This document shows, one piece after another, positions 7,156 to 13,064 of a stretch of 64,000 bases of DNA. Position 1 is the stretch's first letter. Every line of letters begins with the position of its first letter. This DNA is from Chloroflexota bacterium (lineage in GTDB: Bacteria > Chloroflexota > Dehalococcoidia > Bin125), in contig JAPPNI010000007.1 in the NCBI GenBank assembly GCA_028873865.1, forward strand, positions 1 to 64,000. Direction: 5' to 3'. The notes below the pieces were generated by a model. The model saw only the letters and a program-made list of their open reading frames with translations, was not told the origin of the DNA and did no database searches. The translations under genes and the position numbers were made by a program.

Positions 7156-8379
7156 ATGCCTCGCGTGATGCTGCTGATACCGACGGCTTCCTACCGTGCG
7201 CCCGACTTCATGTCGGCGGCGGACAAGCTGGGGCTGGATGTCGTCGTGGCTTCGGACGTCGACCAGCCGCTGGCGGATATGTATCCCGGGCGCTGGCTGA
7301 CGCTGCCGTATCACGATGTCGAGCGCGGCGCGCAGGCGGTGGCGAGATACTCGGACCGGTTCCCGCTCGACGCGGTCGTGGCGGTTGATGACCCCGGCAC
7401 GATCCTCGCCGCGCACGCGACGGCGGAACTACAGCTGACCGGCAATACGCCGGAATCGGTGATCGGCACGCGCGACAAGTCCGAGCTGCGAAGGGTGCTG
7501 GACGCGCACGGCGTACGTTCGCCATGGTGGCGGGTCTATCGATTTGACGAAGGTTCGCCGGCGCAGGCCCTGGAGTATCCCGTGGTGGTCAAGCCGCTCG
7601 GCCTGAACGGCTCCCGCGGCGTGATGCGCGCCAACGACCCGGCCTCGTTCGAGCGCGCGGTCGGCAGGTTGCAGCGATTACTCAGGACGAAGTCGGCAGC
7701 GGAGGAGTGCGGCGATCTCGTCGACCGCTACCTCGTCGAGGCGTACATTCCCGGCGTCGAGGTGGCGCTGGAGGGTCTGTTGCGCGACGGAGAGTTGCAC
7801 ACGCTGGCCGTGTTCGACAAGCCCGACCCCCTGGAAGGGCCCTTCTTCGAAGAGACGATTTACGTGACGCCGTCGCGGTTGCCGGAGGAGCAGGTTGAGG
7901 CGGTGGTCGAGACGGCGCGGAGGTCGGCCGAGGCGCTGGGGTTGCGCGATGGGCCGTTGCACGCAGAGTTGCGGCTGAATGAAGAGGGCGCCTGGCCGGT
8001 GGACGTTGCGGCGCGGACGATCGGCGGGTTGTGCGCGCGCACGCTGCGTTTCGGAGCGGGCATGTCGCTCGAGGAGATCGTGCTGCGCCATGCGATCAGC
8101 GCGCCCCTGGACACGTTGAACCGGGAGGCGTCGGCAGCCGGGGTGATGATGATGCCGATCGTCGGGCGGGGCCGGATCCAGGCGATTCGCGGTCTGGACG
8201 AGGCGGCCGCGGTGCCGCTGATCGAGGCCATCGAGATGGAGGCGCGGGTCGGCGACATGCTCGTCCCGCTGCCCGAGGGGGCCGACTACCCGGGATTCAT
8301 CTTCGCGAGGGGCGATAATCCGGCAGCGGTGGAGTCGGCGCTGCGGGAGGCGTGGTCGAAGATCGAGTTTGTGCTGTAG
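7156..8379 (+). CDS. ATP-grasp domain ligase, substrate unknown
   Basis: 407-residue soluble protein of the ATP-grasp superfamily, which joins a carboxylate to an amine or similar nucleophile through an acyl-phosphate. The N-terminal pre-ATP-grasp Rossmann part carries LLIPTASYRAPDF and VAVDDPGTILAA. The ATP-grasp core has VVVKPLGLNGSRGV (phosphate-binding glycine loop), LVEAYIPGVEVALEG and the acidic metal-binding stretch LHAELRLNEEGAWPVDVAARTIGG. Such arrangements are seen in carbamoyl-phosphate-synthase-like, PurK-like and peptide ligase proteins, and I cannot name the substrate. It stands alone, preceded by TGAGGT as a weak ribosome site, and ends 15 bases from a convergent MFS gene. Confidence 0.8.
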   Translation: MPRVMLLIPTASYRAPDFMSAADKLGLDVVVASDVDQPLADMYPGRWLTLPYHDVERGAQAVARYSDRFPLDAVVAVDDPGTILAAHATAELQLTGNTPESVIGTRDKSELRRVLDAHGVRSPWWRVYRFDEGSPAQALEYPVVVKPLGLNGSRGVMRANDPASFERAVGRLQRLLRTKSAAEECGDLVDRYLVEAYIPGVEVALEGLLRDGELHTLAVFDKPDPLEGPFFEETIYVTPSRLPEEQVEAVVETARRSAEALGLRDGPLHAELRLNEEGAWPVDVAARTIGGLCARTLRFGAGMSLEEIVLRHAISAPLDTLNREASAAGVMMMPIVGRGRIQAIRGLDEAAAVPLIEAIEMEARVGDMLVPLPEGADYPGFIFARGDNPAAVESALREAWSKIEFVL

Positions 8380-8394
8380 CGGGGCGCCATCTGG

Positions 8395-9807
8395 CTATCG
8401 ACCGGTTCGTTGCGGCGCGGGTCTTGTGAGCAGTGGGCTGATGGCTCTGCCGAGCACCACTTTGGGTGGTTTGGCGAAGTAGATCGGGATGAGGGCCGCG
8501 TAGGTCAGGATGGCGACGACCGTGAGCGGCACCTCGTAGGAGCCCGTGAGGTCTTCCAGCCAGCCGATCATCCATGGTCCGAAGCCGCTGGAGATCTGGG
8601 TGGCCATCGCAATCAGTCCGTAGACGGCGCCGAAGCTGACGTAGCCGAAGACATCCGAGGTGAGCAGCGACTGCAGCATGTAGACGTTGCCGATCGTGAA
8701 GCCGAAGATCAGGATCGCGACGTAGGTGACGGCGATGTGGTCGACCTGGATCACGACGAGGGCGGCCGTGCCCTGGACGAGGAACATGATCACGGTGAGG
8801 ATGCGCAGGTCGACCCGATCGGCGAAGAAGCGTCCCACGATGAGGCGGGCAACGATGCTGCCGAAGGCGATGATCGAGAGGCTTGAGGTCGCTGCGGTGA
8901 GCGAGCCGACGCGTTCCTGCAGAAACGCCGTTTGATGCAGGATGAAGCCGGTCTGGGCCAGCAGGACGATGACGAAGCTGATCATGATGGCCCAGAAGGG
9001 GACCGTGCTCGTGGCGCCTCTGATGGTCCAGCGCCGGGTCTGGTTGGCGACCGAGCGGGCCAGGCTCGTGCGTTGCGGCGCGACCGGTTGGAGACCGTCC
9101 TGAGGCAGTCCCATCTGGCGCGGGTCCCAGACCAGGACAAACAGCACGATCGGCAGCCCGAACAGCAAGATCAGGCCAGCCATTGCCGGAGTCGCGATGC
9201 CGAGGCCGAACTGCTCGATGAGGATTCCGTTGACCGGAGAGAGAACCACACCGCCCAGGGAAACGCCGGTCGAGGAGATGGCCATTGCCCAGGCACGGCG
9301 ATGGAGGAACCAGCGCGCCAGGGTGGCATTGACGGCGACGCCAGCGCTCATGCCGGATCCGAGCGCCATGACGATGTAGGCCAGGTAGAGCTGCCAGAGT
9401 TCTCGGACGTGTCCGATTCCGGCCGCTGCGACGATCAGCAAGAGCAGGCCGGGCGTCATCCATCTTCTGGCGCCCTGGCGGTCGATCAGCGGTCCGATCA
9501 GGGCTGAAGTGATCCCGGAGAAGACGAAATACATGCCGGTTGCGAGGGAGACGTCGCTGTTTGACCAGCCGTGCAGCTCTCGCAGGGGGCCGAGGTAGAC
9601 GGCGATGCCGTAGTAGCCGACTCCAACGGAAACGAACATCAAGGCAGCGCAGGCGAAGACGATCGCCCAGCCGTAGTAGACGTTGCGGGGCAGCAGACGC
9701 GCGGCCAGGGGCCGATGCGGCTGCAGTTCGAACGGCTCGCGAGAATTCGGCGGGCTGGACAAAGCCGATTCAGCATACGGCCGGCCGTGGTCAGTCCGGG
9801 ATTGCAC
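8395..9807 (-). CDS. MFS transporter, monocarboxylate/oxalate-formate antiporter type
   Basis: 470-residue integral membrane protein with twelve hydrophobic segments expected of the major facilitator superfamily. The first helix begins YYGWAIVFACAAL, a form common in the oxalate/formate antiporter and monocarboxylate porter branch. The A-like loop reads GPLIDRQGARRWM between helices 2 and 3, and helix 5 contains GVSLGGVVLSPVNG. The about 40-residue hydrophilic N-terminus before the first helix suggests the true start may be further in. Substrate cannot be read from sequence. It is convergent with the ATP-grasp gene and divergent from the deacetylase-like gene 45 bases away. Confidence 0.82.
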   Translation of the reverse strand: MQSRTDHGRPYAESALSSPPNSREPFELQPHRPLAARLLPRNVYYGWAIVFACAALMFVSVGVGYYGIAVYLGPLRELHGWSNSDVSLATGMYFVFSGITSALIGPLIDRQGARRWMTPGLLLLIVAAAGIGHVRELWQLYLAYIVMALGSGMSAGVAVNATLARWFLHRRAWAMAISSTGVSLGGVVLSPVNGILIEQFGLGIATPAMAGLILLFGLPIVLFVLVWDPRQMGLPQDGLQPVAPQRTSLARSVANQTRRWTIRGATSTVPFWAIMISFVIVLLAQTGFILHQTAFLQERVGSLTAATSSLSIIAFGSIVARLIVGRFFADRVDLRILTVIMFLVQGTAALVVIQVDHIAVTYVAILIFGFTIGNVYMLQSLLTSDVFGYVSFGAVYGLIAMATQISSGFGPWMIGWLEDLTGSYEVPLTVVAILTYAALIPIYFAKPPKVVLGRAISPLLTRPAPQRTGR

Positions 9808-9852: not shown

Positions 9853-10980
9853 ATGGCTGAGCGACGGACGGGCTGGGTGTACCACGAGTCCTATATGTGG
9901 CACGACACGGGTCGGACGCGGGCGTTCGATCCCGAGCTGCGCCGCTGGATGCAGTCCTGGGAACACTGGGAGAACCCGGACACCAAGCGCCGGTTCAACA
10001 ACCTGCTGGAAGTGTCCGAGTTCTCGGAAGAACTGGTGCCGCTGAAGCCACGCTCGGCGAACCTGGAGGAGGTCCTGCGTTTTCACACGCCGGAGTACGT
10101 CGACCGGGTGCGGGAACTATCGGCGATCGACGGCGGCGATGCGGGCGAGGGCGCGCCGTTCTCGCACGGCGGCTATGAGATCGCGCTGCTGGCTGCGGGC
10201 GGGACGATCACCGCGGTCGACGCGGTGCTCGACGGAGACGTCGACAACGCCTACGCGCTCGTGCGTCCGCCCGGGCACCATGCGGAGCGGGACCGGGGCC
10301 GCGGCTTCTGCATCTTCGGCAACGTCGCCATCGCCGGCATGCATGCGCTGGCGGAGCGAGGGATCGACAAAGTCGCGACCCTGGACTGGGACGTTCACCA
10401 CGGGAATGGCACCCAGCAGGCGTTCTTCGACCGCAAGGACGTACTGACGATGTCGATCCACCAGGATCAGTGGTATCCGCGCGAGAGCGGCCGGATGGAC
10501 GAACAGGGCGAGGGCGACGGGGACGGGTACAACATCAACGTCCCGCTCCCGCCAGGCAGCGGGCACGGCGCGTACGTCGAAACGATCCGGCAGGTCGTGG
10601 TCCCAGCGCTGCAGGCGTTCCAACCCGACCTGATCCTGGTGCCCTCGGGATTCGACGGCGGTATGTATGACCCGCTGGGCCGGATGATGGCCTACTCGGA
10701 GACTTTCCGCGAGATGACCCGGCTGCTGATGGAAGCGGCGGATGAGCTCTGCTCGGGACGGCTGGTACTCAGTCACGAAGGCGGCTACAGCCCGACCTAT
10801 GTCCCGTTCTGCGGCCTGGCCGTGATGGAGGAGCTGAGCGGGAGGCGGTCGATCGCCGGTGATCCGTTCGAGGACAACTCAGCGACGGCCGGTGGCCAGG
10901 ACCTGCAACTCCACCAGCAGGCGGTACTGGACGACGCGAAGTTGCTGGTCGATCGGTTGCGGAGCCTCGAGGGCGTCTAG
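9853..10980 (+). CDS. histone deacetylase-like zinc amidohydrolase (class II type)
   Basis: 375-residue cytoplasmic enzyme of the arginase/deacetylase fold. In bacteria these remove acetyl groups from polyamines, lysines or other acylated amines. Active-site signatures are VRPPGHHAERDRGRGFC (tandem histidines), TLDWDVHHGNGTQQAFF (Asp and His zinc ligands), LVPSGFDGGMYDPLG (third metal Asp) and LSHEGGYSPTYVPFC. The region around the third Asp reads GFDGGMYDPLG where many relatives have an Ala-His after the Asp, which may shift substrate choice. Its last three bases overlap the end of the extended radical SAM selenoprotein frame on the other strand. Confidence 0.85.
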   Translation: MAERRTGWVYHESYMWHDTGRTRAFDPELRRWMQSWEHWENPDTKRRFNNLLEVSEFSEELVPLKPRSANLEEVLRFHTPEYVDRVRELSAIDGGDAGEGAPFSHGGYEIALLAAGGTITAVDAVLDGDVDNAYALVRPPGHHAERDRGRGFCIFGNVAIAGMHALAERGIDKVATLDWDVHHGNGTQQAFFDRKDVLTMSIHQDQWYPRESGRMDEQGEGDGDGYNINVPLPPGSGHGAYVETIRQVVVPALQAFQPDLILVPSGFDGGMYDPLGRMMAYSETFREMTRLLMEAADELCSGRLVLSHEGGYSPTYVPFCGLAVMEELSGRRSIAGDPFEDNSATAGGQDLQLHQQAVLDDAKLLVDRLRSLEGV

Positions 10981-12356
10981 AGCTCGATCAAACTGATCGT
11001 CTCTGTGTTGTCCGGGCTGCCGAGGGGGGCCAACTGGTCCCCGGTTGGCTCGGCTCAACAGAACCAGTCCTCGGTCAGGCCGGGACGATGGACGTGAGGA
11101 GCAGGTAGGTCGGGCCATGGCTCGACATCGAGCGCCTGGCAGGCCGCAGATTTGATCTGCGTGAACGACGCCTGACGTTCCGCCAGCGCGGCGATCTGAG
11201 CCTGCAAGGCGTCCATGCGCGGGTCGGCGTGGCGCCAGTTCCAGGTCAGACCATCGGTGTCGTAGGAGACCAGGGAGTCCATCTCCCGCATCGGCTCGAC
11301 CAGTGGTGAATCCGAGGGGACCAGGAGACGCAGGCCGAGTTGGACCGGCGGCGTCAGGTCGACGAGTCGCCGCGTCTCGATGAAGTTCAGCAGAGCGAGG
11401 TAGTCCGTTGCCGATGTCCAGGGCGTGAACGGCAACCAGGTCGGTCGCAGGGCAATCTCCGCCTGCGTGGTCAGTTCAAGCGCAAGATCAAGGTCCGCCG
11501 CCGTATGCCCCTTGTCGAGGACTTCCAGAAGCCGGTCATCCACCGACTCAAAGGCCGAAGTGATGAACGTGACACCGAGCGATGTCATTTCCGGCAAGAG
11601 GTTCTGGTGTTCAATCAGGTGCTCGACCTTGATGGTGGCGTCGAACGTGACACCAGGGTGCGCCTCGGAAGCGCCGCACAGCAGATCCATCGCCAACTCT
11701 GGTGCGTTGAGAAAGTCGGGGTCCCCGAACGTGATGTGCTCAGCGCCTGCCGCGACTTGCTGGTCGATATCGGCGAGCACGGTTTCGGCGCCGTTGAGGC
11801 GCAACCGACCTGCATAGATCGGCGTGAGCGGACAGTGGGTGCATCGATGGGCGCAGCCGCGAGTCGCTTCGACGTAGCCGGCGATGTGCGATCCGCCGTC
11901 CGCATCGCGGTATTGGGCGTAGCGGTCGAGTGGCGGCAGGATTGAACGTTCCGGGACGGTTCGCGGGTCGCGGTCGAAGACTGGCGCATCAGCCGCAGAG
12001 TCGCCACCAGCGAGCCGAACGAGTTGCAGATCGGTATCGCCGCTGATCGCTCGGCCAAGGCCCAGGTTTCGTAGCGAGTTGGCGGCGAGCCCGTAGAACA
12101 CGATCCGGTCGGAGAACCCCTCCAGTTGACGGGCGACGCGGATGCCGAGTCTCGCGGCGGTGTGCATCGGCGTGGAGATACCGATCAGGTCAGCCTCGGA
12201 CGCGGCGGCATTGAGGCGCTCAGAGCTGACGGATTCGACGGCGAGATCGAGCGCGGCGACCTCGTGTCCGGCGGCGATCAACGCAGCGGCGGGCGCGGCG
12301 ATACCGAGCGGCTGGTGTCCCTGTTCGTAGGTGGAGATCAGAAGGACGCGCGCCAT
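10977..12356 (-). CDS. radical SAM selenoprotein with CUAEP tail (Sec encoded by TGA at 11055-11057)
   Basis: B12-binding-like N-terminal Rossmann region (residues about 1-120, starting MARVLLISTYEQGHQPLG) followed by a radical SAM core with the 4Fe-4S motif TRGCAHRCTHC (Cys168, Cys172, Cys175). A conventional reading stops after ...TEDWFC at TGA 11057-11055 (433 residues). The frame continues TGA-GCC-GAG-CCA, that is Cys-Sec-Ala-Glu-Pro, then about 22 more residues to TAG at 10979-10977, giving 459 residues. Cys-Sec/Cys-Ala-Glu-Pro is the named hallmark of the CUAEP/CCAEP-tail radical SAM (seleno)protein family. A strong stem-loop sits immediately 3' of the TGA (11019-11054). The gene lies 28 bases downstream of the nfuA-like gene on the same strand. 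Function of the family is unknown to me. Selenocysteine machinery is not in this window. Confidence 0.85.
11019..11054 (-). promoter_or_regulatory. bacterial SECIS-like stem-loop directly after the in-frame TGA
   Basis: Starting at the base after TGA, GCCGAG pairs with CTCGGC 36 bases later. Inside, GGGG-A-CC pairs with GG-CCCC around the tetraloop AGTT, leaving CCAACC as a 5' bulge. The apical loop lies 19 bases from the TGA and has G as its second base. This meets the published bacterial SECIS pattern of a loop 16-37 bases from UGA with a G in the first two loop positions. An alternative inner pairing, CCAAC/GTTGG, is also possible. Pairing was done by eye, with no energy calculation. Confidence 0.7.
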
Positions 12357-12384: not shown

Positions 12385-12993
12385 CTACTTCTTCGACGGC
12401 TGGTAGTAGGGGTTCTCGCCCGACTGGTGGTCGGTGACGTCGATCAGCTCGTCGATCTCGGGCAGTTGCTCCTTGACCGCGACTTCAACGCCCTGCTTGA
12501 GCGTGACGTTGGCCATACCGCAGCCCTGGCAGCCGCCGCCCATTTCGATGTAGGCCTTGCTGCCCTTCACCTCGAGCAACTGCACGTAGCCGCCGTGGGC
12601 CGCGATCTGCGGGTTGACTTGCTCGTCGAAGATCTGCTGGATGGCCTGGGCCAGCGGGTCGCGCCAGACGGGGTTGGGATTGTTGAACTCGAGACCGGAC
12701 ACGTTGGGGCCCTTGAACTCGTAGTGGATCGCGGTGCCGCGCAAGTCGTCAACCCGTTCGCCCTCGACGTAGAGCGTGAAGTCCGGGTAGTCGGCCGTGA
12801 CATCGCCTTCCGGCTCATATCCCTGCTCGACGATCGTCAGCACGTGCTCAAATCCATCAGAGGTCCGTCCGGCAATCTTCAGGCGAAGTCCGGCGACTTC
12901 CTCCGGATAACCGGTCAAGACTTCGAGCAGCTTCGACCGGGCAACCTCCGAAAAAGTGATGCCCAGTTCGTTGGCGTCCACGTTGGTGGTCAT
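12385..12993 (-). CDS. NfuA-like Fe-S scaffold/carrier (degenerate A-type domain plus Nfu domain)
   Basis: 202 residues from MTTNVDANELG (two codons inside a longer ORF that starts at 13005). The N-terminal half (about 10-100) resembles the A-type carrier fold of E. coli NfuA without its cysteines. The C-terminal half is a NifU C-terminal (Nfu) domain with MGGGCQGCGM, giving the CxxC pair Cys155/Cys158 that holds a 4Fe-4S cluster at a dimer interface. The order A-type then Nfu and the total length match NfuA. It lies directly upstream of the radical SAM selenoprotein gene, so it may supply or repair that enzyme's cluster. The start is close to the divergent CocE-like gene (71 bases). Confidence 0.82.
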   Translation of the reverse strand: MTTNVDANELGITFSEVARSKLLEVLTGYPEEVAGLRLKIAGRTSDGFEHVLTIVEQGYEPEGDVTADYPDFTLYVEGERVDDLRGTAIHYEFKGPNVSGLEFNNPNPVWRDPLAQAIQQIFDEQVNPQIAAHGGYVQLLEVKGSKAYIEMGGGCQGCGMANVTLKQGVEVAVKEQLPEIDELIDVTDHQSGENPYYQPSKK

Positions 12994-13064
12994 CTCACGC
13001 CCCAATCCGAGTGTCGTTTTCTAGCATAGCGTTCGGCATAGTCACACACGTATCGGAGGACGCC

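Follow-up and report, generated by a model that had tools for sequence, protein, structure and literature searches.

Here we describe a gene for a radical S-adenosylmethionine (SAM) enzyme in which an in-frame UGA is almost certainly translated as selenocysteine (Sec, U), aided by a hairpin directly downstream, to form a C-terminal Cys-Sec-Ala-Glu-Pro (CUAEP) motif. The gene lies on the minus strand of a 64,000-nucleotide stretch from a Chloroflexota bacterium (contig JAPPNI010000007.1, positions 1 to 64,000, assembly GCA_028873865.1), hereafter called the window. The best explanation of the data as a whole, to which we assign a probability of roughly one half, is a recoded Sec enzyme that would perform chemistry similar to that of ArsL and whose product would be coupled by a ligase.

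Translation of the frame that opens at position 12356, with TGA read as Sec, gave 459 residues with a single in-frame TGA at codon 434 (11057-11055), in the context WFC-U-AEP (residues 431-437), and a true stop at the TAG at 10979-10977. Under translation table 11 the open reading frame stops at 11055. An earlier interpretation made from the letters of the window only (the sequence-only reading) had traced this same frame through Cys-Sec-Ala-Glu-Pro to the TAG, which the translation confirmed. Homologues were drawn from 24 related loci of named bacterial genomes and from the class to which the window belongs, where approximately 55 of the 393 genomes carry the family. Of 47 non-redundant homologous genes, 33 have TGA at the critical position and 14 have TGC or TGT; none has any other codon, and this set contains no extra in-frame stop ahead of that position. 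The motif [FY]C(U/C)AEP is invariant and AEPTxxQ(L/F)AP is conserved past the critical codon, such that every aligned homologue has Sec or Cys at position 434 as well as conservation beyond it. All 15 genomes of the same genus have the TGA form, and a maximum-likelihood tree placed three to five Sec/Cys switches inside the CUAEP family. A reading of UGA as Trp was ruled out, as the homologues have Cys. The cultured bacterium Thermomicrobium roseum carries a TGA form on its large plasmid (L092:9935-11371), and the corresponding RefSeq protein, WP_012643191.1, bears the CUAEP/CCAEP-tail name yet ends at the Cys preceding the UGA (...SWFC), the kind of truncation that the sequence-only reading had anticipated from standard gene calling.

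All four components of the Sec machinery are present in the same 2.8 Mb genome, namely SelA (526 bits), SelB (above cut-off, 622 residues), tRNA-Sec (70.2 bits, with the UCA anticodon in the sequence) and SelD (above cut-off). The SelD gene, located outside the window (G000:C15:138134-139075 of the same assembly), itself contains one in-frame TGA and is the second selenoprotein gene of this genome; its relatives occur in Sec or Cys forms. Co-occurrence of tRNA-Sec with the CUAEP gene is uninformative, because 315 of the 393 genomes of the class have tRNA-Sec.

We then considered the RNA 3' of the UGA. A hairpin resembling a bacterial Sec insertion sequence (bSECIS) spans positions +13 to +31 after the UGA, where the own genus holds GGGG-A-CC/AGUU/GG-C-CCCC. 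In 17 distant Sec-form sequences, standard pairs occupy 94% of the pair cells, and compensatory changes at two pairs (alignment columns 17-33 and 20-30) alternate between C-G, A-U and G-C. The covariation score of this set was 0.408 compared with 0.156 in shuffles; 0 of 500 shuffles reached that value, and the signal vanished once the register was shifted by one column. When synonymous codons were shuffled with the protein kept, the hairpin gave z values of about -3.9 for the distant Sec forms, -2.4 for the own genus and -0.7 for the Cys forms. The Cys forms have a disrupted stem (2 of 14 at the central pair) and no longer carry the loop U; the loop AGUUN is found in 30 of 33 Sec forms versus 1 of 14 Cys forms. 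Keeping this loop requires either a TTG codon, which is rare here (only 5-10% of the leucine codons in these genes), or a switch to Phe. By this comparative test the stem-loop is kept in Sec forms and degraded in Cys forms, as is required of a bSECIS element. An Rfam search of the window and of the tail returned no match to a selenocysteine element.

A genuine stop at UGA434, with the tail as a relic or a product of occasional read-through, is hardly credible. Standard gene callers end the protein there, as does RefSeq for the T. roseum homologue, but the tail is invariant past the UGA, 14 homologues have Cys codons, the hairpin covaries in Sec forms only, the sel genes are complete and the genome contains a second UGA-bearing gene in SelD. 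Because of the codon alternation, the conserved tail, the hairpin, the sel genes and the T. roseum truncation, we conclude from these comparisons that the conventional stop is wrong; the recoding proposed by the sequence-only reading therefore stands.

A search of the 459-residue translation against radical SAM families gave NF040546, the NCBIfam 'CUAEP/CCAEP-tail radical SAM (seleno)protein', as the best match (E 9e-145, 482.9 bits, profile positions 1-467 of 468), in agreement with the family named by the sequence-only reading. The curated cut-off of 500 bits was missed by the protein and by the whole genus (457-483 bits); this cut-off is an annotation rule and not a biological feature. In the tree, the protein is nested among members that pass NF040546, next to L028, which is the gene of genome G110 that scores 577.9 bits. 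It has the features of the family, i.e., a radical SAM core with CxxxCxxC and a C-terminal C(U/C)AEP; domains and tail are alike, and its genus forms a divergent branch below the cut-off. The family is already named in NCBIfam, and our protein is a divergent, sub-threshold member. We found no paper on it in the literature searched, and a 2026 review of selenoproteins in prokaryotes (PMC13188914) makes no mention of NF040546. The review lists other radical SAM selenoproteins, a TIGR04167 radical SAM domain protein and TrsS (NF045646), which have the radical SAM fold and Sec in common with the CUAEP protein but differ in family and motifs.

Pfam assigned a radical SAM domain and a B12-binding-like domain, the latter at 32.7 bits, just above the cut-off of 32.1. 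An AlphaFold2 model had a mean predicted local distance difference test score of 88, and its best matches among solved structures in a Foldseek search were AprD4, MgmA, OxsB and TsrM, all of which combine a Rossmann domain with a radical SAM barrel. With regard to a possible B12-binding domain of the kind found in cobalamin-dependent radical SAM enzymes, the fold matches OxsB, TsrM and AprD4, and no DxHxxG motif was seen in an alignment of 22 homologues. In the same alignment the only invariant cysteines are C168, C172, C175 and C433, together with Sec/Cys at 434.

The second NCBIfam match was ArsL (NF040542), the radical SAM enzyme of the biosynthesis of arsinothricin, an arsenic-containing antibiotic, at 240.9 bits versus a cut-off of 450. 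The reciprocal score was 364 bits, 43 positions are the same in every sequence of the two families, and the maximum-likelihood tree resolved the CUAEP family and ArsL as sister clades with a support of 100. The CUAEP enzyme is thus established by sequence comparison as an ArsL homologue and sister lineage. The two share approximately 30-37% identity, the CxxxCxxC motif and an invariant vicinal pair at the C-terminal end (Cys-Cys or Cys-Sec), with C433-C434 aligned onto the CC of the R-C-C-L-K-C motif of ArsL. In contrast, ArsL terminates in RCCLKC, whereas in the CUAEP protein the motif is followed by about 20 residues and preceded by a linker of several tens of residues, such that only the vicinal pair is common to the two tails. 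ATP-grasp genes and genes for major facilitator superfamily (MFS) transporters occur in ArsL plasmid clusters as well as in the CUAEP setting, but no ArsM, ArsR or ArsN neighbours were found for CUAEP genes. ArsL has been proposed to transfer the 3-amino-3-carboxypropyl (ACP) group to As(III) (PMC8552651).

A gene for an L-amino-acid-ligase-type ATP-grasp protein was found near the CUAEP gene in 27 loci, usually in convergent orientation, and an Acidobacteria CUAEP locus has a 32%-identical ATP-grasp gene in the same direction. Across the class (393 genomes), 55 genomes have the orthologue, and all but 4 of these belong to the CUAEP set (51 of 55 CUAEP genomes; Fisher p 2e-54 without regard to phylogeny); at the level of genera, 23 of 23 with CUAEP have it, as do 3 others. 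The co-occurrence holds even where the two genes are far apart, with the ligase gene on a different contig in G187, G314 and G319 and at a distance of about 25 kb in G025. By this co-occurrence, the ATP-grasp ligase is quite probably a dedicated partner of the CUAEP enzyme. Like BacD and dapdiamide synthase-type ligases, it combines an ATP-grasp with an L-amino-acid-ligase C-terminal domain, but it scores far below the cut-offs of every named ligase. The biochemistry of the family, which the sequence-only reading professed not to know, is now constrained by the kinship to ArsL together with this partner, and a peptide-bond-forming gene that travels along with the enzyme suggests the kind of small molecule that is made.

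On the hypothesis that we favour, such a system would operate as follows. The [4Fe-4S] cluster would cleave SAM, and the ACP group would be transferred to an acceptor to give a non-proteinogenic amino acid. Cys433-Sec434, as the counterpart of the vicinal cysteines of RCCLKC, would fold over the active site and hold a soft acceptor such as As(III). The co-inherited ATP-grasp ligase would couple the new amino acid to a second amino acid, export of the product might fall to an MFS transporter, and the NfuA-like protein encoded next to the enzyme would supply or repair the Fe-S cluster. Acceptor binding by Cys-Sec, ligation of the product, the order of reactions, export and the role of NfuA as a cluster carrier are steps that we infer. 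Homology to ArsL makes transfer of ACP onto a soft acceptor, bound by Cys-Sec, the most likely reaction; by analogy, ACP chemistry as such may be put forward tentatively, at somewhat under an even chance, and arsenic as the specific acceptor is rather doubtful.

Several observations weigh against this interpretation. The tail after residue 438 is unstructured and of low confidence in the AlphaFold2 model, and the alignment with RCCLKC concerns a short segment flanked by gaps. The hairpin energy of the single sequence in the window is unremarkable (z -0.69, dinucleotide shuffle), so that the comparative test alone is significant. The ATP-grasp proteins of the CUAEP and ArsL settings are only about 25% identical, though their best model families are the same, and the MFS genes of the two settings are not orthologous, except at one Cys-form locus (29% identity). 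None of the neighbourhoods examined has an arsenic gene beside CUAEP. No ArsM was found in the own genus at E<=1e-30, and the best ArsN1a-like protein of the genus reached 76.7 bits versus a cut-off of 170; in G000, G020 and G073 neither ArsM nor ArsN1 passed the cut-off. ArsM is no commoner with CUAEP (18 of 31 CUAEP genomes versus 19 of 29 comparison genomes), and ArsN1 showed no enrichment either.

The lack of ArsM and of an ArsN1a above cut-off in the own genus, and of any ArsM enrichment, argues against arsenic. Arsinothricin synthesis in its known form therefore does not fit, and something else may serve as acceptor. That the CUAEP enzyme makes arsinothricin itself, like ArsL, is very improbable: the homology and the ATP-grasp and MFS genes in both settings would fit, but the ArsL cut-off was missed, the tail differs and the genus is without ArsM and ArsN1. 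There is a more appreciable chance, if still well short of even, that Sec434 has a redox, hydrogen-donating or sulfur/selenium-handling role on a carbon substrate, with 5'-deoxyadenosyl radical chemistry as in the structural neighbours AprD4, MgmA and OxsB, no metalloid, and an ATP-grasp ligase that activates a carboxylate of the product. The top matches among solved structures share the two-domain architecture and are ordinary 5'-deoxyadenosyl-type or methylating enzymes, no ars genes lie nearby, ArsM and ArsN1 are not enriched, and an adjacent Cys-Sec could form a selenenylsulfide. Against this reading, the nearest relative in sequence by a wide margin is ArsL, in which a vicinal Cys pair occupies the corresponding end and ATP-grasp genes lie nearby.

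An NfuA-like homologue was found near CUAEP in 31 loci among those examined, including the deltaproteobacterial locus L036; in almost all of them it immediately precedes the CUAEP gene in the same orientation. In the window, the NfuA-like gene is probably an operon partner of the CUAEP gene. Escherichia coli NfuA restores the auxiliary cluster of lipoyl synthase. By this precedent, the Fe-S cluster of the CUAEP enzyme could be consumed for sulfur (or selenium) insertion and refilled by NfuA, in line with the upstream position of the NfuA-like gene in most loci. We regard this as improbable: with only three invariant Fe-S cysteines plus C433/U434, the protein lacks a motif for an auxiliary cluster such as lipoyl synthase has, and the ArsL-family loci inspected have no NfuA neighbour. 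A system of two to three genes in Chloroflexota (NfuA-like protein, CUAEP selenoenzyme and ATP-grasp ligase), in which Cys-Sec holds a metalloid, radical SAM chemistry makes a carbon-metalloid bond and a new peptide-coupled organometalloid amino acid results, is rather unlikely.

Neither the comparative evidence for the hairpin nor the linkage to ATP-grasp and NfuA was found in the literature searched. As database entries are usually truncated, the two residues likeliest to matter are lost from them. With a hairpin that Sec forms retain and Cys forms have let decay, the family offers a clean natural Sec/Cys comparison over three to five switches. Its ArsL kinship and co-inherited amino-acid ligase lead to the hypothesis, open to direct test, that selenium-dependent chemistry gives rise to new amino-acid natural products.

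Table 1. Features of the CUAEP gene and its surroundings (window positions)
Feature	Position	Strand	Remark
CUAEP-tail radical SAM selenoprotein gene	10977..12356	minus	459 aa with TGA=U; table 11 call, 433 aa
B12-binding-like Rossmann domain (residues ~1-120), radical SAM barrel, C-terminal CUAEP tail	protein of 10977..12356
In-frame TGA, Sec434, straight after Cys433	11055..11057	minus	TGA or Cys codon in all 47 homologues
C168-A-H-R-C172-T-H-C175, radical SAM [4Fe-4S] cluster ligands	11832..11855	minus	from translation and alignment
bSECIS-like hairpin, GGGG-A-CC / loop AGUU / GG-C-CCCC	11025..11042	minus	+13 to +30 after the UGA; also encodes part of the tail
NfuA-like Fe-S carrier (A-type-like N terminus + NifU domain)	12385..13005	minus	28 nt upstream, same strand
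ATP-grasp ligase with L-amino-acid-ligase C-terminal domain (LAL_C2)	7156..8379	plus	partner by co-occurrence
MFS transporter, candidate exporter	8395..9807	minus	position conserved in own genus only
Histone-deacetylase-fold amidohydrolase	9853..10980	plus	convergent, 4-nt overlap with true stop of Sec gene

Many genomes of the genus retain the overlap between the amidohydrolase and Sec genes, and conservation of this position is limited to that genus; a role of the amidohydrolase in the CUAEP system is doubtful. Because conservation of the histone-deacetylase-like, CocE, P-type ATPase and MFS neighbours is largely confined to the genus or family, we do not consider them core parts. Methyltransferases near a few CUAEP loci were generic, and none was an ArsM above cut-off.

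ATP-grasp genes are likewise present in ArsL-family plasmid loci of Priestia, Alicyclobacillus, Klebsiella and Pantoea, in many cases alongside genes for MFS transporters and ArsM. Six such plasmid clusters (L093, L094, L096, L097, L098, L099), including one on a conjugative Klebsiella pneumoniae plasmid, encode an ATP-grasp ligase and usually also MFS, ArsM and a CobW-like GTPase. Judging by gene content, these clusters may specify a pathway of the arsinothricin type that includes a ligation step. Such a step was described in no paper found, and the arsQ-arsL-arsM locus of Pseudomonas amygdali is without an ATP-grasp gene. Several related genomes (G070, G107, G114, G322, G289 and others) encode arsenite methyltransferase homologues with one in-frame TGA, which are probably known ArsM-type selenoproteins.

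Two Cys-form loci deserve mention. In L079 (L079:7920-9116, L079:8547-12021), an MFS gene whose product is 29% identical to the MFS protein of an ArsL cluster lies directly upstream on the same strand, followed by oligopeptide ATP-binding cassette transporter genes. The deltaproteobacterial homologue L036 (L036:8001-9500) has a CCAEP tail as well as an internal stop and a frameshift, which reflect either an assembly error or a pseudogene.
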